The position numbers were made by a program, and so were the translations under genes. DNA of 64,000 nt from Methyloversatilis discipulorum (GTDB taxonomy: Bacteria > Pseudomonadota > Gammaproteobacteria > Burkholderiales > Rhodocyclaceae), in assembly GCF_000527135.1 (NCBI RefSeq), contig NZ_AZUP01000001.1:1736001-1800000 (forward strand). Reading direction: 5' to 3'. Of this stretch, positions 10,781-47,462 are shown one piece after another. The notes beneath the pieces were generated by a model. That model saw only the letters and a program-made list of their open reading frames with translations. It was not told the origin of the DNA and ran no database searches. Each line of letters opens with the position of its first letter. The stretch's first letter is position 1.

Positions 10781-10802
10781 AGGGCTCGGATCTCGTTCCG
10801 GG
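10781..10802 (+). terminator. ssrA intrinsic terminator, left portion, interrupted by transposon
   Basis: The left arm AGGGCTCGGA (10781-10790), loop TCTCGT, and right-arm start TCCGGG (10797-10802) end abruptly where the transposon begins. The missing rest, CCCT followed by T residues, is found at 47154-47161 on the far side of the element. Joined through the duplicated CCGGG, the right arm reads TCCGGGCCCT and pairs fully with the left arm (one G-T wobble), followed by a T-run. This is therefore the old ssrA terminator cut in two. Confidence 0.85.
10798..10802. repeat. Left copy of probable 5-bp target-site duplication (CCGGG)
   Basis: CCGGG lies just left of the element, and the same five bases occur directly after its right terminal repeat (47149-47153). 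Five base pairs is the duplication length of Tn7-type transposition. One additional T (10803) separates this copy from the TGTGCCGTTA terminal repeat, so either the left end carries an extra base or a one-base insertion occurred there. Confidence 0.75.
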
Positions 10803-10803
10803 T

Positions 10804-10813
10804 TGTGCCGTTA
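10804..10813 (+). repeat. Left terminal inverted repeat TGTGCCGTTA
   Basis: Ten bases beginning with TGT, exactly complementary to the right end at 47139-47148. The TGT...ACA termini match the Tn7-like/Mu-like DDE transposase superfamily. Confidence 0.88.
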
Positions 10814-10848
10814 AGCATAAAGTGGCCACTTGGTCACTTTATGCTTAA
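10811..10848. repeat. Perfect 14-bp inverted repeat at the left transposon end
   Basis: Arms TTAAGCATAAAGTG (10811-10824) and CACTTTATGCTTAA (10835-10848) are perfectly complementary around a 10-base spacer, followed by TTTCTC. The AAGCATAAAGTG core recurs in degenerate form at the right end (reading inward, AAGGCATAAGTTGTCC at about 47102-47119), so it is probably a pair of transposase-binding sites in opposite orientation. In RNA from ssrA it would fold into an A/U-rich hairpin and may stand in for the disrupted terminator. Confidence 0.7.
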
Positions 10849-10853
10849 TTTCT

Positions 10854-10875
10854 CGATAGGCCACATTTTGCTTTT
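10854..10875 (+). repeat. Putative TnsB-type binding site, left end
   Basis: A 22-bp motif beginning CGATAGGCCA and ending TGCTTTT. It matches 47043-47064 near the right end at 18 of 22 positions, in the same orientation on the plus strand. Multiple ~20-bp binding sites at each end are a hallmark of Tn7-like elements. Confidence 0.6.
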
Positions 10876-10950
10876 TCGGCTTTTTGTGGTAGGCGATTAA
10901 GCATCTGAACTGGAACCAGCCCGGCTGGAAGAGGGCTTATGTCCGGACGA

Positions 10951-10980
10951 AGAAAAGCCGGCTCATGGCCGGCTTTTTCT
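10951..10980. terminator. Bidirectional intrinsic terminator after tniQ
   Basis: The stem AGAAAAGCCGGC (10951-10962) / GCCGGCTTTTTCT (10968-10980) around loop TCATG carries an A-run on one side and a T-run on the other. It lies 16 bp beyond the tniQ stop and would end the outward-reading tnsAB-tnsC-tniQ transcript before it enters ssrA, and also stop read-through from ssrA. Confidence 0.85.
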
Positions 10981-10996
10981 GTTCGAAATTTGCGCG

Positions 10997-12298
10997 TCAG
11001 TTCGCGTCGAGTTCCTGTTTGATGTTCTGGAGCATATCGAACAGATGTTCGACTGAAGACAGGATGTCGTGCGGTACGCGCGCCTCCAGTTCCCGCAAGG
11101 TAATCGCCCTACCCTCCTCAATCAGCGCTCGACACGCCGCCTCGATATATGGGCGTGCCCGAGCCTGCACCTCTTCCCCGCGGCTGCGCACATAGCGTTT
11201 CCAGCGCTCACCCAATATCCGCGCCTCCTTGTTCGCCTGCAGGTAGAGATGACGCCGATCCACGTTCAGGCGCTGCGCGGCCTGTGCGACGCTGATCGGC
11301 ACGGGTAAGGCAGCAAATCGCGTCAGTTCTGCCCGCATGCTCTCCCAGTTCAGCTCTCGGGGTGCCCTTCTGATCCCGACTGATCCCAGATCGAGTTCTC
11401 TTTGAGCAATCGCGAAAGGTACCAACCACCCTCCGAGGTCTCCTGCCAGCAGTTTCGGTAACGGCAACCCAACGTGAAGCGCGATGCGAAGACTGGCCTC
11501 CAGCGTGGGGACACCGCCAACTTGTACCCAGTGATGCACCGTACCCTTCCCAAGCCCGATGCGGCGAGCGAAAGCGGCACTCCGTCCATGATCGAGACGG
11601 GCGACCAGTTCGCCAATTACTGCGCGCAGCCCTTCCCGCGTCGGCTGCATCGACAAGTCGCACTGAGCGCTCAGCAGCAGGCCAACCTGGCGAGCCGTCC
11701 AAATGGCCTCAGGCGACACGACTGCTTGAGCCTGGAGAGCGCTGCGGCCTAGGAAAGCTCCGCAATGGGTGCACCAGCCCGGCACCACATAAGTCGCCCG
11801 GTGACGGGTGCCAGGGCGGCCGCAGTCAGGACAGACATCCACGAGCGAAGTGTGGTGCTTGTGACATGTCGTCACAGCTGCGATGTCCCAGGCCAAACGG
11901 AAGTACGGAGAGGCGCCGCTCCTCCTATCCTCCTCCAGGCAATCGGGACACCACCGCCCGCCTTTGGCTGCCAGTCCGCGCTGGGCGATGACCTGTCGCC
12001 ATGGCAGCAATGTCAAGCGGTCAAGATGGCCGACACTCGTGAGGGCCGCCAATGCCCCCGCCCATGTCTCCGCCGCTTCGCCCAAGCCACAGAGGTTGCG
12101 CTCGTGCCAGTCGAACCCCTCTCGCAACTCGCTACCCATTTGCTTGACCACGATACGAGAGAGCGACGTCACCGAAACGCTGTGGGACAACGCCAGTCGG
12201 CAGAAATAGCTGAGCAGGCTCTCTACGTCAGGCGTATTCCAGCCTCGCGGTTCTAGCGCATGCAGGACAGAGCGCGGATTGCGCACGACGCGATTCAT
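10997..12298 (-). CDS. tniQ: TniQ-family target-selection protein
   Basis: TniQ/TnsD proteins bridge a target site and the TnsC ATPase. From ATG 12298 the protein has 433 residues, starting MNRVVRNPRSVLHALEPRGW. The N-terminal TniQ domain contains WHERNLCGLGEAAETWAGALAALT and LLPWRQVI. Zinc-ligand pairs follow: WCPDCLEED, TTCHKHHTSLVDVCPDCGRPG and WCTHCGAFLG. The C-terminal half, after about residue 200, contains helix-turn-helix-like segments (FARRIGLGKGTVHHWVQVGG; VAQAAQRLNVDRRHLYLQANKE). The start overlaps the tnsC stop as ATGA. The length suits a TnsD-like target reader, so I infer it recognises the ssrA 3' end, but that is not visible directly. Confidence 0.87.
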   Translation of the reverse strand: MNRVVRNPRSVLHALEPRGWNTPDVESLLSYFCRLALSHSVSVTSLSRIVVKQMGSELREGFDWHERNLCGLGEAAETWAGALAALTSVGHLDRLTLLPWRQVIAQRGLAAKGGRWCPDCLEEDRRSGASPYFRLAWDIAAVTTCHKHHTSLVDVCPDCGRPGTRHRATYVVPGWCTHCGAFLGRSALQAQAVVSPEAIWTARQVGLLLSAQCDLSMQPTREGLRAVIGELVARLDHGRSAAFARRIGLGKGTVHHWVQVGGVPTLEASLRIALHVGLPLPKLLAGDLGGWLVPFAIAQRELDLGSVGIRRAPRELNWESMRAELTRFAALPVPISVAQAAQRLNVDRRHLYLQANKEARILGERWKRYVRSRGEEVQARARPYIEAACRALIEEGRAITLRELEARVPHDILSSVEHLFDMLQNIKQELDAN

Positions 12299-13335
12299 GC
12301 TGCACCCCGTCTCTGCACCCGGGCGCGCGAAGCCGGCACTTTGAGTGTGTGGCGCGTCAAACCCGCGTTGATCGCAGCCTCCCCCTCCAGGATCTCCTCC
12401 AAAATCCGCTGCCGCTGGGCATCGGTGAGCAGCGCTCGCTGCAATGCATCCACCGACCAGCCGCCGGCTTTTTGGGCCAGCATGGCTGCGCGCATCAGCA
12501 CCGCACTCAGCGTACCCACGCAACCCAAAGTGTTTTCCTGAAGCACCTCAGCGTGCGGCAGCAACTGGTCACCCCACAGCTCGGGCAAAGCAGCTTGGAA
12601 CTTCAGCACGCAGGCGCGAAATGCTCGCAGATCAGGATCCAGATCCTGACGGTAGCGTTCGAAATGCAGCACATGTGTGCGACGAGCAAGCTGCCCCGAG
12701 AGCGAAACCAGTTGGTAAAGATCGTAAGAGCCAATCAGCACCATCTGGGTACCACACTCGTTGGCGAGTGATTTGAGCGTATCGAGTTGGATTTCCAGTC
12801 GGTTGCGACGGGTCTGGCGAATGATATGGGCCGCTTCGTCAATGACGAGGAAGCGGGTGCCTCGCTCGCGCAGACCTCGTTCCACTGCCGTACGCAATGC
12901 CGCCAAAGTGTTGCGGGAGGCTCCCTTAGGCCACACCGCGCGTCCACTATTCGCATCCACACCAAAAGCGACCTTCGGGAGGTCGAGGTCACCTGCGAGT
13001 TGGTCGAGGATGCGCTGGTAGAACGAAGTCCATGAAAAGTCGCTCTCGCCTGAAGCGGGTGCCTGCACATATACAGCGGGGATGACGCCAGCGTTGGCTT
13101 CCATCTGCGCCGAGGCGTCCATCAGCGCGGCCTGAACAAACTGGCGCGCGAGGGTGCTCTTACCGACGCCCGTCGGGCCACAGACCAGAAGAATGCTGTC
13201 CTGGCTGCCTGGGTAGATCAGTGTGTCAAGTTCGCTCATGACCTGCGCAATCCGGGTGTGCTTGATGCACAGCGAAAGCAGGCTTTGTGCGGAGACGGGT
13301 ACGGTACTGACGGAAGTGTTTGGTTGATTGGTCAT
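12295..13335 (-). CDS. tnsC: TnsC/TniB-like AAA+ transposition regulator
   Basis: ATPase that links the target selector to the transposase. From ATG 13335 it has 346 residues, MTNQPNTSVSTVPVS. Walker A is GPTGVGKS (residues 53-60), Walker B is RFLVIDEAAH (161-170), and sensor-like IGSYDLYQLV follows. The fold order matches the AAA_22/TniB group. A TTG at 13347, just overlapping the tnsAB stop (13344-13346), is the alternative start. The 3' end overlaps tniQ by 4 nt. It is part of the three-gene transposition operon. Confidence 0.88.
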   Translation of the reverse strand: MTNQPNTSVSTVPVSAQSLLSLCIKHTRIAQVMSELDTLIYPGSQDSILLVCGPTGVGKSTLARQFVQAALMDASAQMEANAGVIPAVYVQAPASGESDFSWTSFYQRILDQLAGDLDLPKVAFGVDANSGRAVWPKGASRNTLAALRTAVERGLRERGTRFLVIDEAAHIIRQTRRNRLEIQLDTLKSLANECGTQMVLIGSYDLYQLVSLSGQLARRTHVLHFERYRQDLDPDLRAFRACVLKFQAALPELWGDQLLPHAEVLQENTLGCVGTLSAVLMRAAMLAQKAGGWSVDALQRALLTDAQRQRILEEILEGEAAINAGLTRHTLKVPASRARVQRRGAA

Positions 13336-13343
13336 GGTGCGCC

Positions 13344-16046
13344 TCAAAAGGTATCGAAGTCGGGGAGGTCGTCCGGCGCATCGGCCTCTGGCGGGCGAGC
13401 GGACGGTGTGGCTTTAGATGACCTGATACCTGCCGACGGTGTGTCAGCCTGTGGAATGTCCTGAGAGAGGCGGCGTTGCTGAACAGGAGCAACCGGGGTG
13501 ATGCAGCCCAGCTGCAAAGCGTTGAAGAGGTGCTTGTTTTCTTGCTGGCGCTCCAAGGCAATGGCTAACGCCCCTTCGGGCGTTAAGACCTGCATGAACT
13601 CGCGAATACGCTGCGCACTGCCCTCATCATCAAGAGACGTGCCGCTCCTGCGGGTGTATTCCTCGGTGAGTGACCGGCGCTCAAGGTCGGTCAGTTGCCC
13701 CAAACCAATGAGGACGCGACAGGTAGCCTGCACCCAGCGGTCCTTCAGCCGGACATACACGGAGGAGGCATCCCAAGGGTCGTAGCGCACCGGAAGATTC
13801 CGCCCGGCAACTCGCGGGTCCCGGAACTCTTGGCACCAGTAAAACAACCCAGACACCTTGACGCCGCGCTGGCGATTCACGAGTCGAACGCCCTGCCGGT
13901 CGACCGGTGGGCAGGTTGCAATCAAGAAATCCCGATTGAACTGAATCAGCCGTTGCGGGCGGGCGCCGTTCTCCCGCAGCCCACGCTGAAACGCCTCGCG
14001 CGGGCTGCAGTCCAGCGCAACGTGTGGCTCTTGATCGTAATACTCGGTCGCCCAGTATTCGAGGCCGAAATACATGGCCTCCAGAGTCCATTCAGCAAAG
14101 TTCACGGGCAGGTGCTTTCCGGTGACCATACGTACGTTCTTGGTCGCCTTCGTATTTCCCGCCAAGTTGTGGACGTATTCGCTGTGCACTCGCCCGAAGA
14201 GCCGCTCGAGCACTGCCCCATGTCGAGGCTGCCCGGCGGGCCGAAAGCGCAGATGTACGCCCATCACCTGCAGAAAGCTTTCGAACGCGGCTGACATGAA
14301 ATCTCGCCCGTTGTCGACAACGACGAATTCGGGCAAGCGCCCGAAGCGCCGCACCATGTCGCGTATCACCATCATGACCGAGTGGTACGACGGAGGATCA
14401 AAGGTCAGATGCAGCGCAACAATCCGACGCGACCACGCATCGACCGCCAGGGACAGCCACGGGCGCCCCAACGGTTTGCCCGATCTACTCGAAACCAGTT
14501 CGATATCAAGTTGTGTGTGATCGATATGGACGTACTGGAAGGGGCGACTGCCATGTGCGGGAGTATCGGCATAAAGCACCTCGACAAATTCACCCTGCTG
14601 ATAGGCCATGCGCTTGCCGTGGCGAATACGCAGGTCGCCCGAAGTCTCCGCTTGCTTTATGCGCGCTATGAAGGTTGGATAGGAAGGCGTTTTAACCCCG
14701 GCTTCTTCACACGCGAGGACGAGCCAGCGATAGCACGCTTTGAAATTGATGGCCTCACTGCTTCGCCATTTGTCCGCAATGACCTCTTGCATGACTTCTT
14801 CTTGCCGCTCGATCAGGCGGGGAGATCGATTACCGCGGGCATACGTACGGGGTACCAGCGCCAGCACTTCATGGGCTCCGTTTGCCTGAGCAGCATGCTC
14901 ACGCGCGCGCCAGCGCCTCTGAGTGCGATCGCTTGCGCCCTTAACTGAGGTCTCGGACTCCAAGATCGCTTTGCGTTGCAAGGCGATATCGAGATCCTCT
15001 TTGGTATGGCGTGCGAGATCCAGCGCGAGCGGATTCGTACCGGCTACAGCGGTAATCGAACCTCGCTCAAGAGCAGCCTCGATCCAGACCCGGCTAAGAT
15101 TGACCGTCGCCCCCGCTTGCCGGGTGCAGACCACGTCCTTTTCGCCCACCAGCGAGATGGTAAGTTCCTGCGACCCGTAGGAGAAACGCGCGCCCTCTGC
15201 GATCTCGAAGACAAAACGCTCTTGTCCTGGCACGGCACCGACATGCGTCTCACCCGCCATGAAATCGCGCAATGTCTCGTCACGGTACAGTCGCGCACGC
15301 CGCGTGTCCGACAACAAGTCCCTATCCAGATCAGCGACAACCAGGTGATCAGGGATCGCCTTGAGCATTACATCGGCTGAAAACGCTTGGGGGGCCGCCA
15401 TCAGGAAATCGAGGGTACAGCTGCCGTGTTCAGCAAGAACGGCGGTCAGCCGCTCGACGTCGCTCTGCAAACAGGGTTCTGCGGCCGGGTGACAGTAATC
15501 CGCAAGATGGAGAAGATTCTCGACACGCCGGCGGGGAATGGCCTCTTCGCTGTATATGCGGTAAGTGATTCCGAGCTCCGCCAATGCGCGCTCGATCTGA
15601 GGGGCTAACCAGCGTCCGTCGGCGTCTCGCTCGTACCGATACGGCTGCTTTTCCGCAAGGCGGGTCAGTTTTTGGACCGACTTCCACTCTTCAAGCGTGA
15701 TTCCGTCTTCGCGGAGCACAAGGAAGTCCGGGTAATGCCGGATAGTGCGGAGGTCGCCTAAGGCCGGATCGAACAGTTCAAGACGCAGTTCGCAGGGCTG
15801 AGCGTAGTACTCAAGGACGCGCGCATCGAATTCGTGGTCCACGGCTGCGGCAAACTCGATATGCCGGCTCTCCGTGCTGATCTCGCAACCCATTTTGCGG
15901 CTTGCAAGCACGGTGATGACGTTGCCGCCCCGGGATTTGACCGGTCGTACCGGTGCCTCGATGCGCGCTTTGAGGACAAGTTTTCGCCCCGCATCGGGCG
16001 TGCCGAGACGGTCGAACAGTTCTGTGAGGTGTGTGGTATCCAGCAT
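13344..16046 (-). CDS. tnsAB: Fused TnsA-TnsB transposase (endonuclease plus DDE transposase)
   Basis: A single 900-residue protein. Residues about 30-170 form a TnsA-like endonuclease with ESRHIEF (Glu59/64), HYPDF (Asp107) and LEEWKS (Glu120/Lys122), a PD-(D/E)xK layout. Residues about 190-490 hold DNA-binding regions. The RNase H-like DDE core contains HIDHTQLD (Asp509), VVVDNGRDF (Asp578) and HGAVLERLFG (Glu614), followed by a Mu-type C-terminal barrel and a C-terminal tail likely to contact TnsC. Both active sites look complete, so the element could perform cut-and-paste. The ATG at 16046 is the first codon after a clear promoter/operator region. Codon use resembles the host less than core genes do. 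Confidence 0.9.
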   Translation of the reverse strand: MLDTTHLTELFDRLGTPDAGRKLVLKARIEAPVRPVKSRGGNVITVLASRKMGCEISTESRHIEFAAAVDHEFDARVLEYYAQPCELRLELFDPALGDLRTIRHYPDFLVLREDGITLEEWKSVQKLTRLAEKQPYRYERDADGRWLAPQIERALAELGITYRIYSEEAIPRRRVENLLHLADYCHPAAEPCLQSDVERLTAVLAEHGSCTLDFLMAAPQAFSADVMLKAIPDHLVVADLDRDLLSDTRRARLYRDETLRDFMAGETHVGAVPGQERFVFEIAEGARFSYGSQELTISLVGEKDVVCTRQAGATVNLSRVWIEAALERGSITAVAGTNPLALDLARHTKEDLDIALQRKAILESETSVKGASDRTQRRWRAREHAAQANGAHEVLALVPRTYARGNRSPRLIERQEEVMQEVIADKWRSSEAINFKACYRWLVLACEEAGVKTPSYPTFIARIKQAETSGDLRIRHGKRMAYQQGEFVEVLYADTPAHGSRPFQYVHIDHTQLDIELVSSRSGKPLGRPWLSLAVDAWSRRIVALHLTFDPPSYHSVMMVIRDMVRRFGRLPEFVVVDNGRDFMSAAFESFLQVMGVHLRFRPAGQPRHGAVLERLFGRVHSEYVHNLAGNTKATKNVRMVTGKHLPVNFAEWTLEAMYFGLEYWATEYYDQEPHVALDCSPREAFQRGLRENGARPQRLIQFNRDFLIATCPPVDRQGVRLVNRQRGVKVSGLFYWCQEFRDPRVAGRNLPVRYDPWDASSVYVRLKDRWVQATCRVLIGLGQLTDLERRSLTEEYTRRSGTSLDDEGSAQRIREFMQVLTPEGALAIALERQQENKHLFNALQLGCITPVAPVQQRRLSQDIPQADTPSAGIRSSKATPSARPPEADAPDDLPDFDTF

Positions 16047-16109
16047 CGCGTCGTCAAATCAGTTCTAGATGTCCACGTCTAGGAACCGGATTTGGCTGAA
16101 AATGGCGAT

Positions 16110-16127
16110 TCGGTCGTATACGACCGA
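16110..16127. promoter_or_regulatory. 18-bp perfect palindrome between tnsAB and DUF6471 gene
   Basis: TCGGTCGTATACGACCGA lies in the 148-bp divergent interval between tnsAB and the small gene at 16195, flanked by an outer imperfect pair (CTGAAA...TTTCAG). The position and symmetry suggest an operator controlling one or both genes. The small DUF6471-type protein is the natural candidate regulator; this is inference. Confidence 0.5.
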
Positions 16128-16194
16128 TTTCAGCGCATTGAGAGCGCTCAGTCGTCGCGTCCGCCCTTTTTCGTAACCGCCTGGGAAACCTTTG

Positions 16195-16476
16195 ATGCCG
16201 CAGAAGCCCGCCCGCGCAGCCGCGAGCGATAACCCGCACGCACGCTGGGAAGACCTCGCGTTCGATCTGCTGAAGAGCGAGATGCGCGAGAAGAAGATCG
16301 ACTACAAGGAATTGTCCCGACGGCTGGAAGCGCTCGGGCTTGATGAATTGCCCGACCAGATCAACCGGAAGGTCAACCGGAGGCGTTTTTCGGCCGCCTT
16401 CCTGCTCGCTTGTCTGGTGGCGATGGAAAAAGGCGTCTTGATCCTGCCAAGAGCGGCCGACATGAAGCCGAAGTGA
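16195..16476 (+). CDS. Small DUF6471-type protein
   Basis: A 94-residue basic protein (MPQKPARAAASDNPHARWEDLAFDLLKSEM...). The segment LLKSEMREKKIDYKELSRRLEALGLDELPDQINRKVNRRRFSAAFLLACLVAME matches my memory of the DUF6471 family and looks like a compact helix-turn-helix. ATG 16195 is preceded by GGGAAACC. It is divergent from tnsAB across a palindromic operator candidate and is the first cargo-side gene. It may regulate the transposition operon. No enzyme motifs are visible. Confidence 0.6.
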   Translation: MPQKPARAAASDNPHARWEDLAFDLLKSEMREKKIDYKELSRRLEALGLDELPDQINRKVNRRRFSAAFLLACLVAMEKGVLILPRAADMKPK

Positions 16477-16794
16477 AAAGCGACTCTCTGGAAGATTGCT
16501 ATTCGCTAGAAGTGCAAAATTTGCAGCAAACTCTTTGTTTGGCAAGACTTTCTCCAGTTTGTCTGTTCACAAAATGGAGAGAGCCTGACCTCTCGGCCGC
16601 AGGATCTAGGCTGCGAAGCCCTTCAGCTGTGCTTACGCTTTCCCACAACCGAGTCACTCGTACGGTGCAGGCACGAAGAAAGTTACTTCAGTCGCATGGC
16701 TAATGGCAACTCTATTCCTTGGTTAAGGGCGGCGGCCCAAAAAATGGAAGTGCTCGGATCAATACCTCCGCTGCAAAATCAGCGTCCAAAACGT
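16477..16794. other. Intergenic stretch with no recognisable gene
   Basis: About 318 bp between the DUF6471 gene and the converging res gene. I see no conserved open frame, RNA gene or strong terminator. Base composition is more AT-rich than the neighbouring core. It may be a junction between the transposition module and the cargo. Confidence 0.5.
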
Positions 16795-19700: not shown

Positions 19701-19881
19701 TGCCAATACCACCGCTTTCGGTGAAGTGCTTGCCCTCAAAGCTCTGCTGTGCGCCAGCCGCCAATGCCTGCGCGGTGACCGTGAAAACCGAGCGGCAGAC
19801 CTCCTGACCACGGAAAAGGTCACACACCGCCTCGATGGCCTCGATCTGGTACGGCAGGTCGGATTCAAAATGCAGTTTCAT
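16795..19881 (-). CDS. Type III restriction endonuclease Res-like subunit
   Basis: A 1028-residue SF2 helicase-nuclease. Walker A METGTGKTY occurs at about residues 102-110, the Walker B variant IVDEPQSVDGG at about 240-250, and the motif VI region GRGLRLCVNQKGER later. Near the C terminus YNPDWAVLVERDGQERLYFVVETKSS fits the PD...ExK nuclease. The type III architecture and length (about 1000) agree. The ATG at 19881 overlaps the mod stop (ATGA); a GTG directly upstream is an alternative. As in EcoP systems it would cleave DNA only with its Mod partner. It is the last gene of a five-gene operon. Confidence 0.9.
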   Translation of the reverse strand: MKLHFESDLPYQIEAIEAVCDLFRGQEVCRSVFTVTAQALAAGAQQSFEGKHFTESGGIGNALQLVVDEELYANLQAVQLRNGLPPSQPLSAAQPLDFTVEMETGTGKTYVYLRTVFELNQRYGFTKFVVVVPSVAIKEGVNKTLQITRDHFETLYPGAKGYEFFQYDSDKLGQVRNFATSPNIQIMVITVGAINKFGDETAALAEESDEAKRREKSKNKMYRASEKTGGERPIDLIRGTQPILIVDEPQSVDGGIDGKGKKALAHMSPLCTLRYSATHVDKHNMVYRLDAVDAYEQRLVKQIEVAAATVKGGNNKPYVKLLAVSNKRGVITASIEVDRENAAGAVRRDVISVQDGFDLEQETGRPLYADIRIGEIRTAKGDQFLELKVPGSEVYLRVGEAWGDVDASAVQREMIRRTIKEHLDKEKRLRPLGVKVLSLFFIDEVAKYRQYDDQGNPVKGEYALMFEEEYKRWARHPDYQSLFAEVDLSMAAHDVHNGYFSIDKKKIGGKTVEVVKDTSGSTAADDDTYNLIMRDKEKLLSFESPLKFIFSHSALKEGWDNPNVFQICNFSTRETERWRRQTIGRGLRLCVNQKGERLRGFEVNTLTVIATESYEQFAENLQKDIEKDTGIQFGVVQDHEFAGIAVVRSAGDVQPLGFEASKALWAHLKAEGYINDKGKVQDTLKTALKEGTLSLPGEFEAQRQQVVAVLKKLSGKLEIKNADDRKHIAVRKSVLVSPEFRALWDRIKHKTTYRVQFDNEKLIESCIEALNDAPPVAKTRLQWKKAGIAIGKAGVDASLISVSDSITLNEGDIELPDVLTELQDRTHLTRKTIARILTESHRLNEFKRNPQQFIELAADAINRCKRLALVDGIKYQRLGDEHFYAQELFETEELTGYLKNLVQNTTKSVYEHVVYDSSVERDFAEALERNEAIKVYAKLPGWFKVPTPLGAYNPDWAVLVERDGQERLYFVVETKSSLFDDDLRDAESARIKCGAAHFEALAVGENPAIYGKFKDVDGLLSVERILNP

Positions 19882-21947: not shown

Positions 21948-21983
21948 TGAGGTGCCTCGTAATGGGTTCTGGCTTCGTGCGGC

Positions 21984-34711: not shown

Positions 34712-34724
34712 GGTCAAGACTCCT

Positions 34725-34915: not shown

Positions 34916-35037
34916 GAATTCCAGAGACACGCCCCCGCCTTAGGGCGATCGCTCGGCCGAAGTGCCAACGAAAGCGCCTCGAGCCATCTGCCCCGATGTG
35001 GCGGAGGAACAAACGCCCTCCTGTTAGAAACACGGTT

Positions 35038-35381
35038 TCAGAAAGGGGGCGAACCGCGTGTCGAGTCTTCAAATCGCCTCATGTTCTCGCGAAGGCGACG
35101 TTTGACCCGCGAGCGAAACGATTCGTCAACGGATCGGACCTGTTCGTCGTCTGGCGGCAATGGGATGCCGACCTCTACCGAGACACCGCGGACCAGGGAT
35201 TGAGCACGTCGCGCCAGTTCGGCAGTGATGGGCTCCAATCGTTCAGGGTGCAAAACGATGTCCAGATCGAGAGTATCCAGAAGTCCTCTCGACTGCTCTG
35301 TCGAGTGCTCTGATGAGTGCCTACGCCGGCTAAGACGTATTCAGCTACATCCAAATTTTCCACACCCCAAGGAGCCGTCAC
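35038..35381 (-). pseudogene. Possible frameshifted small gene relic
   Basis: One frame encodes GVENLDVAEYVLAGVGTHQS. After a shift near 35290, another encodes LLDTLDLDIVLHPERLEPIT and continues to a stop at 35038. The second part is protein-like and faintly resembles a nucleotidyltransferase (LDLDIVL). It could be a decayed toxin or antitoxin gene, or chance. I cannot assign a family. Confidence 0.25.
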
Positions 35382-35492
35382 GAATCAACCGACCATCCAT
35401 TCCGGGTAGAGTTCGAACAGCGTTGCATTCTTGAACACCGAGATCATCAAGAGAACCTGGGACGATTCAACCCCGCAATGGGAGTGAACTGT

Positions 35493-37761: not shown

Positions 37762-37976
37762 ACTTCCAACCGAGCACGGAGCCAAGCGGCGCTCTCGCCG
37801 CAGCACGCTGCTCGTGTTGAACGAGTTGCCGGCGAACAGACGGAAGGTCGCCGCGGAGTCGCTGCAAAAGACCACTGAAGAAATGGATTTCTCGGTCCAG
37901 CCGAATCACGCATAGCGCATCCCGTAAGATTCCAACGCGATACCAAGGCGTACCTGCGACGAAAGCCATAACCGAA

Positions 37977-40900: not shown

Positions 40901-42002
40901 CCTGCATGAGGCGTGGGCGACCGCCTGGCGATATTTCGCTCATGCGCTGGCCGGCGAACCGGGCAGGCATGACGCCTGCCGCGATGCTGTGAATAAGGTC
41001 GAGCGCATCGTCCAGCCCTTTGCCCACGATCCGCTTAAGTGGCACAGCCTGCATCACAAATGGGCGTCCGCTTGGCGAGAACTCGCCCGTGCGCTGAGCA
41101 ATAAATCGGGAGAGTCCGAAGCCTGCCGCAATGCGGTGAATAAGGTCGAGCGCATGGTCCAGCCCTTCGCTCACGATCCGCTCAAGTGGAATCGCCTGCA
41201 GTTGGAGTGGGCCAAAGCCTGGCGAGATCTCGCCCATGCGCTGTGCCAGGAACCCGGTAAGTCCGACGCCTGCCGCGATGCCGTGAATACGGTGGAGCGC
41301 ATCGTCCAGCCCTTCACTGACGACCCGCTCAATTGGCACAGCCTGCATCAGGTACGGGCAGCCACTTGGGGATGCCTCGCCCATGCGCTGTGCCAGGAAC
41401 CCGGTAAGTTCGACGCCTGCCGCGATGCGGTGGATACAGTCGAGCGCATCGTCCAGCCGTTCACTAACGATCCGCTCAAGTGGCACAGCATTCACGCTGA
41501 CTGGGCAGCCGCCTGGGGATATCTCGTCCATTCGCTGGGCCAGGAACCTGGTAAATCCGACGCCTGCCGCGATGCGGTGAATACGGTCGAGCGGATTGTC
41601 CAGCCCTTTGCCCACGATCCGCTCAAGTGGCACGAACTGCATCAGAAACGTGCCGCTGCCTGGCGACACCTCGCCTATGCGCTGTGCCAGGGACCCGCCA
41701 AGCTTAACGTCTGCCGCGATGCGGTGAATACGGTCGAGCGGATTGTCCAGCCCTTTGCCCACGATCCGCTGAAGTGGCACAGCCTGCATTATGAGTGGGC
41801 GGCCGCATGGGGGATACTCGCCTATTCGCTGAGTCAGGAATCCGGCAACTCCGACGCGTGCCGCGATGCGGTGGACAGGGTCGAGCGCATCGTCCAGCCT
41901 TTCAATAACGACCCCGTGACATGGCACGCGCTGCACGCGTTTCGCGACGCTGCGCGCAGCTTAATTCGGGAATCACTGATCCGCGCACGGCCCTGCGATT
42001 AA
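37977..42002 (+). CDS. Large membrane-anchored P-loop ATPase with tandem 49-residue repeats
   Basis: 1341 residues. Two hydrophobic segments lie near the N terminus (about 21-42 and 77-90). A P-loop domain follows with GPNGCGKS (177-184) and Walker B SLLVLDDPG (262-270), next to long helical regions. Residues 809-1298 hold ten 49-residue units of the form ERIVQPFAHDPLKWH..LH..WA.AW..LA.AL.......ACR.A, plus a decayed eleventh, probably helical solenoid (TPR-like). The layout (ATPase core with C-terminal superstructure repeats) resembles STAND-type sensors, but I cannot place the ATPase in a named clade. It follows the FHA gene by 215 bp and precedes the amidohydrolase by 67 bp. Confidence 0.72.
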   Translation: MTDRPPFRYYGDNTLLAFVRRLLIAFLPAALVVYDLNLVLGLFQSDGGWLADAYGAVRGIKLFETVLPERLNSPGGLIAATLPLGLLIHRKLARRIDAWLFAPFDLQVMEPIRRATGILTWVPSPEAKRIYDELLAWTRDDSRLQALPLHWLLSEPDHGLDPENAPFEPFAVAALLGPNGCGKSQLVRELARALSQRGTLGDPPDGCGFPERVRRLRAALRYWWHRVNPGRAETSDPWDAGMLRSDIAALSALKNWRPRAPSLLVLDDPGHGVCGKVVDALVSTRNHFAFPVRLIVVDQFIPADLPVSPPAPPLVTDWCYGQKVAHRKPFTLFRLPEARFDQAQFRQASAEFWRPVPSRGLVGRMLLEKTRSTDIRALYKREDLQRLIDAYDGAPLLLALAVLWLDRNPSRSVADLLETEPTEAERKLFEHFSDAQSTDGTRVFRLIWHRVKELYDSHHDFHDKLPYAVAAATLAGGLATTEANTKFTLQISRDLPRFGDWNDNHRIAPVSPRPLGKYYAQLVRDTDFRDNPGAFMETIVAAALQTAPGQTLKWLVRAKWLGEERTSWVDSRRADDPDWAFVRWQAYASAALDHMPDMLPRAAQALAGLADAQLDTALQTLERLEHSVAGADPSSLGELRFGIGTRRLLASDHAVEHEVEWLARWVEFSPDVNDDSPAAWITRWADALAQILARRDNSDQLLRTFYPSLRNFRGRQVRRSLARALASEPGVGCNDGTLHCWAALLEVQDEATPITDTAPAVHYPVLPAPPAWSGSEIELWSVMVLNADIRRQVSYSGAKCSIDVLKDEVRQIERIVQPFAHDPLKWHRLHYEWAEAWRQLAYALSQEADQSNACRHAVETVERIVQPFAHDPLKWHRLHAQWAGAWQHLAYALCNEPGQSDACRHAVETVERIVRPFAHDPLKWHRLHYEWAEAWRQLAYALSQEADQSNACRHAVETVERIVQPFAHDPLKWHGLHEAWATAWRYFAHALAGEPGRHDACRDAVNKVERIVQPFAHDPLKWHSLHHKWASAWRELARALSNKSGESEACRNAVNKVERMVQPFAHDPLKWNRLQLEWAKAWRDLAHALCQEPGKSDACRDAVNTVERIVQPFTDDPLNWHSLHQVRAATWGCLAHALCQEPGKFDACRDAVDTVERIVQPFTNDPLKWHSIHADWAAAWGYLVHSLGQEPGKSDACRDAVNTVERIVQPFAHDPLKWHELHQKRAAAWRHLAYALCQGPAKLNVCRDAVNTVERIVQPFAHDPLKWHSLHYEWAAAWGILAYSLSQESGNSDACRDAVDRVERIVQPFNNDPVTWHALHAFRDAARSLIRESLIRARPCD
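40401..41870 (+). repeat. Ten tandem 147-bp coding repeats
   Basis: Units start every 147 bp from 40401 (for example 40548, 40695); a diverged eleventh begins at 41871. Units 1 and 3 are nearly identical at nucleotide level (one change seen over the unit), while unit 2 differs, implying recent duplication of a two-unit block. Later units are more diverged. The period is a multiple of three, so copy number can change without a frameshift. Confidence 0.93.
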
Positions 42003-42069
42003 GTTTGGGCCGGCTGATCTATGCAGGTCGACGGCAGCCGAAACGACGAGAATTGAGGCGACGGACAGC

Positions 42070-43722
42070 ATGAACACTTCGCGTCGACAAGCATTGAAAG
42101 CACTGGGCAGCACAACGGCGTTGGCGCTGGCCGGCTGCTGCGGGCCGGCGGCGCGGACCTTGCCCGACCTCACCGGGCGCGCCTCGACACGGGATAACGT
42201 GCCCTTCCTGCTGCGGCCTGAGCTGGCCAGAGCCCGCACAACGGTCCTGCCCTGTCTCGACGTTCATGCGCATTTTTTCAATGCGCGGGACGTACCGGTG
42301 CGCGCATTCCTGCAGAAGTCGGTCGGGCACGACATGCCCAGCTACATCCAGTTGCTGCTGGCAGTGCTGGCACCGGCTATCGAGGCAGCCGCGCAGGACA
42401 TGGCGCCATCGGCGGCCGAGGAGTGGCGCGACCTGCAGGAAATGAGGCTGCGCTTCGCCGGCATGGCGCCCGCTGAGGCCACCGCACGGCTGGATGCGGA
42501 GGCATCTGACCGCGCAGAAGAAGTGGGCAAGGCACTCTATCGCGAAACCAGACGTCGCGCGCCGGAGGCCATCGCGCTGTTCGATTCGCTGGCGCGCGAG
42601 GCGGAACGCAGCGGGCGAAGGACAGGCGTGGGTATCGACCGCTTCAGCGAAGCAACGCTCACCCGGGTGATCCGGGAGTCGCCCGAGCCCACAGATCCAG
42701 GTGCGCTCGACGACCGGGTGGAGGCGAGGGCACGCATGCGCGCTTTGTCACTGCGCAGCGTGATCGAGTTTGCCGGCTTCATGACCTCGCCCCGTTACCA
42801 GAACCTGAGTGCCTATATGCGGGTATATGGCGCACACAACGGTGGGGTGCAGCTTGCGGGTTGCTATGCGGCGCTGGTCGATTTCAATTACTGGCTGGAC
42901 TGCCCGGACGTGTCGACGCATGTGCACGACCAGATCATTCTGCACGCGGAGCTGAGCCGCCTGTCGGGCGGCTTCATGCAGCCGCTGGCGCCCTACAACC
43001 CCTGGGTGGATATCAAGGAGGACGGTGCATCGCTTGCGCTGGTGCGCACCGCCGTGAAGCATCACGGCTTCGTCGGCGCCAAGCTCTACCCACCGATGGG
43101 CTTTCTGCCTTACGGCAACGCCGCCGGGCCGCTCGATTCGACCGAGCGCCGGCCCGATCTGCAGGAACTCGACCGGAATCTGCTGAGATTCTTCGAAACC
43201 TGCGTGGACGAAGGCATTCCGGTGATGGCGCATGCCAATCGCTCCATGGGCCGCGACGCCGCGCACGACGATCTTCCCGGCCCCGACGGCTGGAAGAGCT
43301 TGCGTGACGCGCTGGCCGCAAGACCCGGCGCCTCGCGGTCTGCTTCGTTGCGCGTGAACGCCGGCCATTTTGCGGGCGAAACGGGCATCGCATGGGCGCG
43401 CGACTTCGTCGATCTGGCCGAGCAGTGCGATGGCACGCTCGACCTGTATGGCGACACCGGATACTGGGACGGACTGCTGCAGGGTGGTGCGGCCGCCGAG
43501 CGGCTGGTAGCGCTGCTGTCGGCGAAGTCGCCCGCTCCCTGCCGCATGGCCGACAAGCTCATGTTCGGCACTGACTGGCTCATGCTCAGCCAGGTACCGG
43601 GCTGGAAGGACTATCTCGGCGCGGTAGAACGGGCACTCGACGGCCTGGATGACGACGCGGCCAGGCAGGCGTTTCTAAGTGGCAATGCCCGCCGGTTCTT
43701 CAGCCGGGAACACGGAGTATAG
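42070..43722 (+). CDS. Amidohydrolase-family protein with Tat/lipoprotein signal
   Basis: 550 residues. The N terminus SRRQALKALGSTTALALAGC combines a twin-arginine motif with a lipobox, Cys23 being the possible lipidation site. The metal-dependent hydrolase core shows CLDVHAHFFNA (His66, His68), AKLYPPMGF, VMAHANRS, VNAGHFAGETG and LMFGTDWLMLS (metal Asp). A long helical insertion (about residues 90-190) separates the first motif from the rest. It belongs to the amidohydrolase_2-like group; the substrate is not deducible. It is the last gene of the protease/FHA/ATPase set and probably acts outside the cytoplasm like the protease. Confidence 0.78.
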   Translation: MNTSRRQALKALGSTTALALAGCCGPAARTLPDLTGRASTRDNVPFLLRPELARARTTVLPCLDVHAHFFNARDVPVRAFLQKSVGHDMPSYIQLLLAVLAPAIEAAAQDMAPSAAEEWRDLQEMRLRFAGMAPAEATARLDAEASDRAEEVGKALYRETRRRAPEAIALFDSLAREAERSGRRTGVGIDRFSEATLTRVIRESPEPTDPGALDDRVEARARMRALSLRSVIEFAGFMTSPRYQNLSAYMRVYGAHNGGVQLAGCYAALVDFNYWLDCPDVSTHVHDQIILHAELSRLSGGFMQPLAPYNPWVDIKEDGASLALVRTAVKHHGFVGAKLYPPMGFLPYGNAAGPLDSTERRPDLQELDRNLLRFFETCVDEGIPVMAHANRSMGRDAAHDDLPGPDGWKSLRDALAARPGASRSASLRVNAGHFAGETGIAWARDFVDLAEQCDGTLDLYGDTGYWDGLLQGGAAAERLVALLSAKSPAPCRMADKLMFGTDWLMLSQVPGWKDYLGAVERALDGLDDDAARQAFLSGNARRFFSREHGV

Positions 43723-43906
43723 AGACTGCTTCACTTAGCGAAGAATAACGCCTGCCTCTCGCCCTCTCCAGGGCCGACAAGCCGGCTTGATTCACGACTC
43801 TTGCCTAGATTCGCGGCCAGTGCAAACCGACTGTAAAATCCGTCCGAGGGAAATGGAGGCGCGCTAGGATTCTGCCAATCAAGCTTTTCGTGTCAGGGGA
43901 GCTACG

Positions 43907-44311
43907 ATGCACCATATGGCAAATAACGCATTCGCATCGATCCGCGACTTCGAAGACCTCCTGGACTACCTACGAGACAGGGAGGCAGGCTCGGCGGTGC
44001 TGTCTTCGACTCGATTCTGCGAGATCCTGGGCATTGATACCGAGTTGCTCGCCGACTTGGCCAAAGTTCCTGGCAGCGCCGCAGGTCCGGTGTCAGCTTG
44101 GGAGGGCGCGCAGTGCTTCATACGTGGCACCCTGCGTGTGTTGCACGCTGCCAGCGACCTGAACGGCGACATCGAGCGGACGGTCTTCTGGTTCCGCAAT
44201 GAGCCTTTGGTGCCATTCGGTCAAGAGACTGCTGAGCGTCTTGTGGCGAAAGGACGTGTTGACGACGTTATCAGGTATGTAATGTCACTCGACGCCGGCG
44301 TTGTAGGGTGA
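43907..44311 (+). CDS. DUF2384 (MbcA/ParS/Xre) antitoxin-like protein
   Basis: 134 residues from ATG 43907 with an AGGGGA ribosome-binding site. The C-terminal FRNEPLVPFGQETAERLVAKGRVDDVIRYVMS is the toxin-binding domain that normally masks RES-type toxins. The N-terminal part (TRFCEILGIDTELLADLAKV) is a short helical DNA-binding-like segment. The next gene is a HAD protein, not a RES toxin, so it looks solitary. Confidence 0.72.
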   Translation: MHHMANNAFASIRDFEDLLDYLRDREAGSAVLSSTRFCEILGIDTELLADLAKVPGSAAGPVSAWEGAQCFIRGTLRVLHAASDLNGDIERTVFWFRNEPLVPFGQETAERLVAKGRVDDVIRYVMSLDAGVVG

Positions 44312-44486
44312 ATTGGATTCAGCCGACGAGCTCGCCGACCTGCTTTGCTCCCTCGGGCCACGATTTCGGCCGGTAGCCTCCGTTTGGTCGACCCCAACAG
44401 ACGCGCGCTGCACCGGCACTCCATCAAGCCGCAATCCTCCACCGTCCGCCACGCGGCCTTGGCCCTGACGCATACTCTCCATCGAA

Positions 44487-45020
44487 ATGGCGAATGGGGA
44501 GTGCATAACAGTGGTCACTAGTATTAGGCAGCGAGAACCAAAGCTCCCTACGCTGTTTCTTGACTTTGACGGAGTACTACACCCCGACGAAGTCTTTCGA
44601 GTCGGCGAGCGCATCGTTCTGCGTATGGACGGTTTCAGTTTGTTTGAGTGGTCGGAAGTCCTTGACGAGCTTATTGCGCCTTATCCCTCGCTGCAGATCG
44701 TTCTTTCCACCAGTTGGGTACGGATTCTTGGATTCGAAGTCGCTGGAGCGTACTTGCCAGAGTCACTACAGCGCCGGGTTGTCGGCGCCACATGGCATCA
44801 GACCGCGCCGCGCGGATGGGAAAGGCTTACGAGGTATGAGCAGATTCAGCTGAGCGTCGTTCGACACCGGCACGAGCGTTGGTTGGCAATCGATGACGAT
44901 AGTCATGGCTGGTCGGATGAGCAACGCTCAAACTTGGTCCTTACCGACTCGCTACTTGGGCTTGGCGCGGCATCTGCGCAAGATGAGTTGCGAGATAAGC
45001 TCGCGCGTCTATGTCAGTGA
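44487..45020 (+). CDS. HAD-domain protein (SAK-type)
   Basis: 177 residues (GTG 44511 with GGGGAG upstream is an equally good start). Motif I is TLFLDFDGVLHPDE, motif II LSTSW, and motif IV WLAIDDDSHGW. This compact form is seen in the HAD domain of RNA-repair-associated proteins (HAD_SAK_2). It is predicted to be a small phosphatase or nucleotidase. It lies between two antitoxin-like genes within the transposon cargo, and its role is unknown. Confidence 0.75.
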   Translation: MANGECITVVTSIRQREPKLPTLFLDFDGVLHPDEVFRVGERIVLRMDGFSLFEWSEVLDELIAPYPSLQIVLSTSWVRILGFEVAGAYLPESLQRRVVGATWHQTAPRGWERLTRYEQIQLSVVRHRHERWLAIDDDSHGWSDEQRSNLVLTDSLLGLGAASAQDELRDKLARLCQ

Positions 45021-45132
45021 GATCGACGATGCGGAGCAACGGCGGACGGCGCGAAGAGGGCTTCGCTCAAGGTACGGCAGGTCGGTTGGAAGCAGCCCGG
45101 GTACGGCGAGAAGTGTTTTGTTGGGAGAAAAC

Positions 45133-45606
45133 ATGATGGCGCGCAGTACGTCAGGTTCGATGACCAGACAGCAGGCGATCCGGCGTTTTCAGGAGCTGAA
45201 TTCGGCGAGTTTGGGAGAGCGTGAAGCCGCCATTCGCCGAGGGGTTCCCGCCATGGAACTCGAAGAACTGGCTGCCTTGCTCGGCTTGCCTATTGTTAAC
45301 CTGTCACGTGCTCTGGGCGTGCCTCCATCGACGCTCCGCCGCAAAGCTAAGAACAGGGACGCTCTGCCCGCGGATCAGGGCGAACGTGTGCTGGGCCTTC
45401 AGCGCATAGTTGGCCAGGTACAAAAGATGGTGGAAGAGTGCGGCGATCCTTCGAACTTTGATGCAGCAACTTGGACAGGCAACTGGCTCATGGCACCTCA
45501 GCCTGCGCTCGGCGGCAGACTGGCATTGGAGTTTCTCCGTACTTCCACAGGACTGCAGCTCTTGTCCGAATTGCTCTCGCACAACGTCACGGGCGCATAT
45601 GCCTAG
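45133..45606 (+). CDS. Second DUF2384/ParS-type antitoxin-like protein
   Basis: 157 residues from ATG 45133 (GGGAGA upstream; the open frame extends earlier but overlaps the HAD gene). ELAALLGLPIVNLSRALGVPPSTLRRKAKNRDALPADQGERVLGLQRIVGQVQKMVEECG is the Xre-like DNA-binding part, and NWLMAPQPALGGRLALEFLRTSTGLQLLSELL the toxin-binding part, as in ParS. A RES toxin normally starts at the stop of such a gene. Here only a 27-codon open frame starts there (45599), with no RES similarity, so the toxin has been lost or never existed. Confidence 0.8.
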   Translation: MMARSTSGSMTRQQAIRRFQELNSASLGEREAAIRRGVPAMELEELAALLGLPIVNLSRALGVPPSTLRRKAKNRDALPADQGERVLGLQRIVGQVQKMVEECGDPSNFDAATWTGNWLMAPQPALGGRLALEFLRTSTGLQLLSELLSHNVTGAYA

Positions 45607-45772
45607 TTCCGGCGACAAACGCGACGCCCCCTTTGCCTGCAGGAACCTACCGACTACTTCGTTTCCATCGACACCTCCGTGAAGCCTAATTCTGAGGCAA
45701 GTGGGTGTCTAGAAAACTGGAGCGATTCAGGTGTGCCTTGCTGGCCGCAACCAAATATGACTGGAAACGGTG

Positions 45773-46963
45773 ATGCAGAAGACCGAGAAGTCGGTTGACC
45801 GGGAGACGCTCTACAACGAAGTATGGACCGAGCCCGTGGTGGTGGTTGCCCCACGCTACGGCCTCTCTGATGTCGGACTCGCGAAAATATGCAGGTCACT
45901 CGCGATTCCGCTTCCCAGCCGGGGTTATTGGGCCAAGGTCAAAGCCGGAAGAATCATGCGACGGGTGCCGCTTCCCGAACTGAAAGTACCTTGGTCAGTG
46001 CCAACCAGGCTGGTCAAGCTGCCGACGGAACAACTGGCCGGAAGAGAGGCAACCCGCAAAAGGGCCACACGGGTGCGCAAAGAGACTGCCCTCGTGCCTC
46101 TACCTGAGGCCGCGTCGGCCCCACATCCTCTCGTCCTTGCCGCATCCCGGCGGCTGCGCAAACGCCACGGCTGGACAGAAAGCTCTCCGCTGCGTTCCGC
46201 CCCGAATGAAGTGCTGAATCTGTCGGTGACGAAAGGGGCGCTCGACCGGGCACTTGCCATTACAGATTCGCTGGTCAAAGTACTGGTCAAGCACGGATTC
46301 GCATTTGAAATCGATGTGGAGAATCGTGTAACCCGGATCAAGTGGCTTGAAACAGGCACGACGATGGAGTTTTCTTTGACTGAACACGTGCCGAGAACTC
46401 AGCACGTGGTCACGCCGGCCGAAGAGCGGGCGCAGAAGCGATACTGGAATCGCTCCCGACTAGACAGCTCGATGAGCTATCCGCAAATCCCGCGGTATGA
46501 CTTCAGACCAACCGGGATCTTGACCATCCAGGTTGGTCGCTGGCCGTCCAAGTCATGGAAAGACACGCCAAAAACGCAGCTCGAACGGCGTTTGGGTGAA
46601 GTAGCCGGCGGCATTGTGACTCTGGCACAGGAGACCCACGCCAAAGAGCAGGAAGAAGAGCGCCGGAAGGCGGCGCATCGTCGCGCGGTAGACCAATACG
46701 AATTTCTGACTACGCGCCGTGCCAATGAGATACGGCGCTTTGAGCAACTCGAGACACAGGTGTCGAATTGGGAGCAGGCAGCGAGGTTGCGTGCGTATGC
46801 TGAGGTCGCGGAACAGCGTGCGAGAGCATTTGGGCAGATCACCGGAGAACTCGAGGATTGGCTGGCTTGGGTGCGCGCCAAGGCTGATTGGCTGGACCCG
46901 CTTGTGCTCGTCTCCGATTCCATTCTCGACGCACCTGAACCCAAGCGGCCACTTGGTTACTAG
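45773..46963 (+). CDS. Conserved hypothetical protein at the right transposon end
   Basis: 396 residues from ATG 45773 (GGAAACGG upstream). The N terminus VDRETLYNEVWTEPVVVVAPRYGLSDVGLAKICRSLAIPLPSRGYWAKVKAGR is a helix-turn-helix-like block that I have seen in uncharacterised proteins on mobile elements. The middle is basic, and residues about 280-350 form a strong coiled coil rich in E/R/A. No catalytic motif is visible. Its last codons and stop lie in sequence (GGCCACTTGGTTAC) resembling the transposon left end, so it was trimmed by or evolved with the element end. Confidence 0.65.
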   Translation: MQKTEKSVDRETLYNEVWTEPVVVVAPRYGLSDVGLAKICRSLAIPLPSRGYWAKVKAGRIMRRVPLPELKVPWSVPTRLVKLPTEQLAGREATRKRATRVRKETALVPLPEAASAPHPLVLAASRRLRKRHGWTESSPLRSAPNEVLNLSVTKGALDRALAITDSLVKVLVKHGFAFEIDVENRVTRIKWLETGTTMEFSLTEHVPRTQHVVTPAEERAQKRYWNRSRLDSSMSYPQIPRYDFRPTGILTIQVGRWPSKSWKDTPKTQLERRLGEVAGGIVTLAQETHAKEQEEERRKAAHRRAVDQYEFLTTRRANEIRRFEQLETQVSNWEQAARLRAYAEVAEQRARAFGQITGELEDWLAWVRAKADWLDPLVLVSDSILDAPEPKRPLGY

Positions 46964-47042
46964 AAGTGGTCGCACCTAGATCAGCCTAACATATTGTTTT
47001 TACATGATAAATATTTTGGTCACGTTTTGCTTTATTTTCTAC

Positions 47043-47064
47043 CGATAGGCCAAGATATGCTTTT
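47043..47064 (+). repeat. Putative TnsB-type binding site, right end
   Basis: Begins CGATAGGCCA and ends TGCTTTT. It matches 10854-10875 at 18 of 22 positions. Confidence 0.6.
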
Positions 47065-47138
47065 CTCGATGTAAGGATCGGGCCGTAACTGCTTGAAAAG
47101 AGGACAACTTATGCCTTATCCGACGGTCAATTTTCGGG

Positions 47139-47148
47139 TAACGGCACA
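47139..47148 (-). repeat. Right terminal inverted repeat
   Basis: TAACGGCACA, the exact complement of the left TGTGCCGTTA. Confidence 0.88.
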
Positions 47149-47153
47149 CCGGG
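47149..47153. repeat. Right copy of target-site duplication (CCGGG)
   Basis: CCGGG directly follows the right terminal repeat and continues CCCTTTTT, the second half of the ssrA terminator. Confidence 0.78.
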
Positions 47154-47462
47154 CCCTTTTTCCTGCCTGATCGCAGCGTGATCGGGACGCGTTGACGGGG
47201 TTCTTCTCCGCGACCGGCGTCAGACGTCTTCCCTCGCGCTACCCGTCCGGGACGGCCGCCCGGAACCCTTTCCGATGTGCACTTCGCATCATCCGGAGCG
47301 CTCGCGCGGTTGCGCCGTCCGGCCTTCCGGCCGAATATCCACCCTGTAGCGGATTATGCCGGCGGCGATGAAGCCAGCCGCCGACGCGCCGCACGCGCGT
47401 GCAGCCCGGTCAGAGTGCGGGCTTATTCCAGACCCTGGAACAGATATCGGAGAGCGCCCGGA
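47154..47462. other. Displaced ssrA terminator tail and promoter region of the GGDEF gene
   Basis: Starts with CCC and a T-run (47154-47161), the orphaned end of the ssrA terminator, followed by about 300 bp of high-GC core sequence with no gene I can support before the ATG at 47463. Before the insertion this was the interval between ssrA and the regulator gene. Confidence 0.7.

Follow-up and report, generated by a model that had tools for sequence, protein, structure and literature searches.

A Tn7-like transposon of Methyloversatilis and its relatives located at a fixed distance behind tmRNA genes

Introduction

In Methyloversatilis discipulorum, the two halves of the terminator of ssrA, the gene for transfer-messenger RNA (tmRNA), lie 36 kb apart, which raises the question of whether the mobile element between them landed there by accident or uses ssrA as its attachment site. 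The window analyzed here is a stretch of 64,000 nt (contig NZ_AZUP01000001.1, positions 1,736,001 to 1,800,000), in which a Tn7-like transposon occupies positions 10803-47148 directly behind ssrA. A first-pass annotation, made from the sequence alone, proposed ssrA as the attachment site. Relatives of the element were found at the same distance behind tmRNA or tRNA-Ala genes, so that transposons of this family land regularly at tmRNA. We consider it very probable that a Tn7-like transposon with a fused TnsAB transposase uses ssrA as its chromosomal attachment site, via a TnsD-like TniQ protein and with fixed spacing.

Structure of the insertion at the ssrA locus

The tmRNA gene (10411..10773, plus strand) is intact according to both ARAGORN and Rfam (RF00023, 200.6 bits), and its CCA occupies positions 10771-10773. 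It is followed by the 5' part of the terminator hairpin (10781..10802, plus strand; defined from the sequence and by refolding), the end of which is the left copy of the target duplication CCGGG (10798..10802). The element (10803..47148; 36,346 bp) starts with an extra T at 10803 followed by TGTGCCGTTA from 10804, and the inverse of TGTGCCGTTA finishes at 47148, the two ends being of the Tn7 type (TGT...ACA). At the right junction, TAACGGCACA extends up to 47148 and is followed by CCGGGCCCTTTTT; here the right copy of CCGGG (47149..47153) precedes the 3' part of the terminator, a CCC and a T-run (47154..47161, plus strand), which the element separates from ssrA. In-silico excision of the element together with one CCGGG yields a 10-bp terminator stem with a T-run. 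The matching ends, the flanking CCGGG copies, the split terminator and its repair by excision had all been described in the first-pass annotation and are borne out, as is the reported insertion 29 nt past CCA: the distance is 29 nt if the T at 10803 is counted as part of the element and 30 nt otherwise. The insertion leaves the mature tmRNA sequence untouched and breaks the terminator.

The TnsA and TnsB domains, the TnsC ATPase and TniQ/TnsD are encoded adjacently (10997-16046), and the tniQ end of the element faces ssrA. The TniQ/TnsD-like target selector (10997..12301, minus strand; approximately 434 aa with the start taken at the ATG) was recognized by Pfam TniQ (E 1e-19) and by a full-length fold match to TnsD in structure 8v32. 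It is preceded on the same strand by a TnsC-like AAA+ ATPase (12295..13347, minus strand; approximately 350 aa; Pfam TniB and AAA_22; TnsC 8fcu, E 5e-41) and by a fused TnsA-TnsB transposase of 900 aa (13344..16046, minus strand; Pfam Tn7_TnsA-like_N, rve and Mu-transpos_C), for which the best solved-structure match is 9bw1, named 'Integrase' (E 1.4e-133). Putative TnsB sites are found at 10813 (minus), 10832 (plus) and 10859 (plus) in the left end (10813..10873) and at 47018 and 47048 in the right end (47018..47062, plus strand), i.e., three and two per 260-bp end, against a background of 0.02 per 260 bp elsewhere in the element. Judged from these sequence features, the element is a Tn7-like transposon with a fused TnsAB, TnsC, and a TnsD-like TniQ. 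The first two left sites form an inverted pair that is foldable as an 18-bp hairpin directly behind the broken terminator; this hairpin, which is weaker in two of the related elements (G439 and G1429), may, speculatively, replace the lost ssrA terminator.

Empty site and sister element in the genus

The ssrA locus was compared in 11 congeners, excluding G006, in which the tmRNA match is cut. One congener, G003, has a matching empty site with a single CCGGG and 3 differences over the first 60 nt past CCA. The flanks of the window element are 96% (left) and 93% (right) identical to this site and overlap on it by 5 bases, which correspond to the duplication, and an intact terminator joins both flanks, as the first-pass annotation had anticipated for an element-free relative. 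Another congener, G010, carries a sister element at the same ssrA site, with mostly different cargo and with a duplication offset by 1 bp: its junction has a C at the position of the extra T of the window and a perfect CGGGC/CGGGC duplication. The two elements have in common their first 5.8 kb (88%), a 1.9-kb piece of cargo around hipA (96%), and approximately 3 kb at the right side (82-89%), the rest being different, and their host flanks are 96 and 90-92% identical. This pattern fits best with two separate insertions; an old shared insertion followed by cargo exchange and later junction changes is a less probable alternative.

The right flank of the window at ssrA is common only to the empty G003 and the occupied G010. 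For the remaining nine congeners, the left flank is 82-87% identical and the alignment ends at or just beyond the tmRNA end; the right flank of the window is unmatched at the site, save for short inverted stretches of 71-72% identity in G002 and G008. Because the right flank differs, these nine genomes speak neither for nor against the empty site. As a separate observation, BLAST comparison of the loci (L033-L043) showed a flank 3' of ssrA unlike that of the window in nine of the 11 congeners, and therefore ssrA seems to serve the genus as a general point of exchange.

Distribution of related elements and their RNA-gene neighbors

Relatives were sought with TniQ over ten genome sets comprising 1512 genome slots, repeats included; scoring in the large sets was limited to a few top candidates per genome, and the counts are therefore lower bounds. 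TniQ matches were found in the own genome (1/1), the genus (3/13), the family (7/249), the order (4/399), and the class (1/369), as well as in the families of G202 (5/117), G378 (1/18), G084 (2/299), and G331 (3/43), whereas none was found in the family of G041 (0/4). Strong matches (E 1e-60 or better) comprise 18 genomes; a weak match in G005 was set aside.

In one-half of these genomes (9/18), distributed over four families, an intact tmRNA gene adjoins the tniQ end of the element (G000, G010, G202, G550, G667, G713, G1125, G1413, and G1429). Rfam confirms tmRNA for all nine, and reports no tmRNA at one extra locus, L069. The eight genomes other than the window genome show the same distance from the intact tmRNA gene, in line with the attachment site proposed in the first-pass annotation, which had suggested this comparison for relatives of the TnsAB/TnsC/TniQ set. 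Five further genomes (G331, G439, G469, G492, and G712) have the element adjoining tRNA-Ala(CGC). G492, with two copies facing each other on a single contig, was counted once, since the facing copies are perhaps an assembly artefact. In the remaining four genomes the site is truncated, stacked or at a contig end. The left end in G499 lies 30 nt past a truncated tRNA-like 3' end, TCCGCCA; the G653 element is stacked against the right end of another copy, with no RNA gene in the 6 kb read; the G378 contig stops 115 bp past TniQ, short of any left end; and G1119 is considered below with the points that weigh against our interpretation. Beside the G499 element, positions 900-1260 of locus L066 give a sub-threshold match to a group I intron (34.1 bits, with a cut-off of 50), which neighbors two truncated tRNA-like 3' ends.

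Not all relatives are complete. G550 has a partial TniQ only, with TnsC and TnsAB unmatched in the 60 kb read. A 5.6-kb copy at ssrA in G667 (L102) encodes TniQ and TnsC with no TnsAB match, and has matching ends and a duplication; it is seemingly non-autonomous.

Outside these genomes, a TniQ scan of genome contigs gave one distant match (26%, Metabacillus), and phages gave none. The search of plasmids returned 69 records, all below 60% identity, one of them with at least 80% query coverage. Among viral contigs, a 15-base end pattern hit 14 stretches, with a full left end, identified by eye, only in L084 (around positions 1400-1470), where it lies 29 nt past GGCCCACCA, the truncated end of a tRNA-like sequence. 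The element either moved to a site carried by a phage or was cut into by a phage later. An alignment search of the viral contigs gave one TniQ relative, L158 (49%), in which no left end of this element type was found. At positions 1648-1730 of L158, TniQ directly precedes an RNA-like 3' end, GTTCAAATTCCCCGTGGTCCACCA, with a stretch resembling a terminator, and two recombinase-like open reading frames (ORFs) are located nearby.

Spacing, duplications and stacked insertions

The distance between CCA and the TGTG of the element is 28-30 nt in all 16 measured junctions, including the 30 nt of G499. The left end, TGTGnCGTnAAGCATAAAGTGGCC, is kept across loci with 0-3 mismatches and the stretch between CCA and the element varies; given the constant left end and spacing, it is probably the RNA gene that holds the invariant signal. 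Both ends were identified for the elements of the window, G010 (33.6 kb), G439 (40.1 kb), G469 (23.9 kb), G667 (5.6 kb), and G1429 (24.1 kb), and the five relatives have exact 5-bp duplications (CGGGC, AAAGG, GATGT, GGCCT, and TAGAG). Refolding of the duplication-bearing loci other than G469, five in all, puts each insertion within the hairpin of the terminator or its T-run. The terminator is hit because it sits at that fixed distance.

The G469 locus contains a second left end behind the first element, after GATGT and one base; this second unit (L096-L098) is approximately 3.4 kb long and has no tns matches. Stacked ends are also found in G1119 (L105) and G653 (L161), and thus one insertion leaves the site open to further ones.

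Proposed target recognition by TniQ

The predicted model of TniQ (mean predicted local distance difference test score, 88.1) aligns over its full length to the TnsD of 8v32 (442 alignment columns, TM 0.70, 23% identity), and this alignment covers a TnsD-like C-terminal part that would bind DNA. In a TniQ tree of 17 rows, from which G1119 (partial match) and G499 (stop in frame) were omitted, the five TniQs found at tRNA-Ala cluster together with support of 93/100, and one change suffices between tmRNA and tRNA-Ala, the two intact targets; the root of the tree is unsure, the outgroup branch being very long. Between the tmRNA-group and tRNA-Ala-group TniQs, the C-terminal part is the least conserved, with an identity of 0.30; the within-group values are 0.43 and 0.59. 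The fold match, the tree, this divergence, and the lack of an element within 97 nt behind the tRNA-Ala(CGC) gene of the window genome are consistent with a reading of the 3' end of the RNA gene by TniQ.

The 11 distinct intact targets have in common, over their last 34 nt, the pattern GG.CG.G.GTTC.A..C.C......TCCACCA. In the window genome, which has 43 distinct tRNAs, this TCCACCA end is present in four, three of them Ala and one Tyr. Mimicry of alanine tRNA as such was tried as the explanation and found no support: with a matrix built from the four distinct tRNA-Ala targets, seven tRNAs outscore the best tmRNA site, and a matrix built from the seven distinct tmRNA sites puts tRNA-Ser(gga) first and the tRNA-Ala sites far down. 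The TCCGCCA end in G499 further weakens an alanine-only rule.

The comparisons demonstrate the site and its empty counterpart, the duplication, the orientation, the constant spacing, and the recurrence in several families; we infer TniQ as the reader of the target, the bases that are read, and the present-day activity of the element. Most likely, the TnsD-like TniQ would bind ssrA DNA at the tRNA-like 3' end of the gene, and the bound TniQ would recruit TnsC; TnsAB would then place the element, its tniQ end toward the gene, 28-30 nt past CCA. More specifically, Tn7-like target selectors may exploit tmRNA on account of the tRNA-like end of its gene: one TniQ family would read the T-arm and acceptor-end DNA common to both kinds of gene, with a single evolutionary step between tRNA-Ala and tmRNA, a proposal to which we give slightly less than even chances. 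If it is true, the attachment site is defined by tRNA mimicry, and the specificity of TniQ can be retuned within one scaffold.

Several observations weigh against the use of ssrA as the attachment site in the form proposed here. The left junction of the window has a single T (10803) between CCGGG and TGTG that a clean 5-bp duplication does not account for, and only a single empty site (G003) is available for comparison. For six of the 12 elements with long sequence, the right end could be identified together with its matching duplication; for G550, G202, G712, G1125, G1413, and G1119, it was not found. The G1119 site retains the terminator and final 6 nt of an ssrA (94% identical over 36 nt to those of G020) and lacks the gene body, no RNA family was found there, and the TniQ match lies approximately 6 kb inside the left end. 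On a 1.3-Mb replicon of Caballeronia sp. M1242 (L159), which has TnsAB-, TnsC-, and TniQ-like ORFs (TniQ, 45%), the stretch read shows neither a recognizable left end nor an RNA gene. Finally, recognition could use the gene interior instead of the 3' end. The five relatives whose duplication is exact have no extra junction base like the T at 10803.

Alternative explanations

The alternative that survives best is that TniQ reads tRNA-like 3' ends generally, and that the elements drift with little specificity among tRNA-Ala, tmRNA, and other tRNA ends. Equal spacing behind tRNA-Ala(CGC) and the left ends behind truncated tRNA-like ends in G499 and L084 speak for such drift; however, the targets sort by TniQ clade with one target change being enough, and behind the tRNA-Ala(CGC) gene of the window genome itself the 97 nt read are free of any element. 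We regard general reading as possible, though clearly the less probable account.

Guide-RNA targeting, in which the element would be a CRISPR-associated transposon (CAST) with a spacer against ssrA, is suggested by the origin of the closest solved TnsAB, TnsC, and TnsD structures, all of which come from a CAST. For the element, the 20 larger ORFs were scanned with Pfam and ten of them with PADLOC. No Cas family was found among these 20 larger ORFs, and a direct-repeat search of the element, as distinct from the rest of the genome, gave a 147-nt coding repeat only and no CRISPR-like array, which makes a guide-directed insertion highly improbable. Even less probable is an ordinary tyrosine-recombinase island, although the tmRNA gene is widely used for integration, according to PMC10121019, and in nine of the 11 congeners ssrA is followed by a different right flank. 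The same 20 larger ORFs include no reported integrase family beyond the TnsB core; the junction is outside the gene, with a 5-bp duplication and Tn7-type ends; and a long duplicated ssrA 3' end, as an att repeat from ssrA, was looked for at the right border of the element and is absent. A one-off random insertion that happened to land in the ssrA terminator is refuted by the equal spacing behind intact tmRNA in nine genomes of four families, and its probability is negligible.

The use of ssrA as attachment site is thus retained, and the sister TniQ clade at tRNA-Ala(CGC) together with the truncated tRNA-like end in G499 calls for widening the first-pass reading: the element is best regarded as a tmRNA-using branch within a tRNA-homing family. 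The ssrA gene is present in nearly all bacteria. It is already known as a site of integrase-type islands, and a second, unrelated mechanism is now added, which keeps the gene intact. Equal spacing in the paired tmRNA and tRNA-Ala clades offers a natural comparison for the choice of DNA by TnsD-type proteins, which is of practical use for targeted insertion of large DNA.

Cargo of the element

The region behind the transposition genes begins with a gene for a 163-aa protein without a Pfam or PADLOC match (16054..16545, minus strand), which is matched in G010 (83%) and in none of 10 other elements searched. It is followed by a type III restriction enzyme and methyltransferase (16795..21947, minus strand; Pfam, PADLOC) and by a GmrSD/HEC-05-like protein, a DUF4391 protein and an SNF2 helicase (21984..27684, minus strand), for which the best PADLOC model is HKD+Snf2. 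A HipA-like kinase (plus strand) and an AbiEii/AbiEi-like pair (minus strand) were assigned by Pfam at 31459..34717. The plus-strand group at 35478..43722 consists of a trypsin-like protease, a protein that matches Yop-YscD_cpl weakly and below the cutoff, a 1341-aa repeat protein, and an amidohydrolase-like protein, and is followed by HAD_SAK_2, an Xre-like antitoxin, and a 397-aa protein without a Pfam match (44487..46963, plus strand; Pfam). The cargo is probably rich in anti-phage genes, and the 35478-43722 group is possibly an undescribed defense system. The second protein of this group gives a weak FHA-like match, and PADLOC, applied to three of its members, recognized only the protease, weakly. 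The 1341-aa ORF (37977-42002) contains ten tandem units of 147 nt (49 codons) at 40411-41880, which are 76-100% identical to the reference copy.

Comparison with known systems

Tn7 reads the end of glmS, has TnsA and TnsB as separate proteins, and also has TnsE, unlike the window element. Integrase-type islands and prophages at ssrA use a different enzyme, cross over inside the gene, and have longer att repeats. The host gene is nevertheless the same landing site (PMC10121019). That paper lists prophages, satellites, integrative elements 'and transposons' as possible occupants of the tmRNA hotspot in E. coli, and names Tn6230 at yhiN only; the unspecified transposons at the tmRNA locus leave room for an earlier sighting. 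In the literature covered, partly as excerpts and with supplements and Hsieh and Peters (2022) outside this coverage, no Tn7-like element using tmRNA was found. The main text of PMC10293859 contains neither tmRNA nor ssrA, tmRNA is absent from the main text of PMC8649781 and from the 2024 review PMC11406308, and the available portions of PMC3384475 and PMC10434147 do not treat such a site. Literature searches combining Tn7-like elements with tRNA-Ala gave nothing, and the passage found for ssrA, in its available part, uses this gene as a quantitative PCR reference.

The window element shares with Tn7 the TGT...ACA ends, the 5-bp duplication, a TnsD-type selector, and a safe site just past a conserved gene (see also PMC2918618). 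According to PMC11406308, CAST I-D (CyCAST and McCAST) have, like this family, a fused TnsAB and tRNA attachment sites, and the I-D and I-B2 CASTs derive from fused-TnsAB elements whose TnsD uses various tRNA genes, for which that review cites Hsieh and Peters (2022). TnsD homing in CAST I-D is directed 30-33 nt past a tRNA-Leu end (PMC10293859). CAST I-D differ from the window element in being CRISPR-associated and cyanobacterial, and in using another tRNA.

The best solved matches for TnsAB (9bw1), TnsC (8fcu), and TniQ (8v32) are all structures that we take, in part from PMC12585508, to be those of PmcCAST (type I-B2, Tn7744). These matches point to fused-TnsAB, tRNA-homing relatives of the I-B2 and I-D types, the tree being based on TniQ alone. 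The predicted model of the window TniQ has the full-length TnsD fold in common with PmcCAST, and PmcCAST also attaches beside a tRNA gene, like this family (PMC11406308). Structure 8v32 is a TnsD-TnsC-DNA complex, and the TnsD of PmcCAST is reported to bend att DNA strongly (PMC12585508). Unlike PmcCAST, the window element has no CRISPR-Cas part seen in it, has tmRNA as its target, and has a TniQ with 23% identity in the structure alignment. As an attachment site tmRNA is apparently new, the kind of transposon being known.

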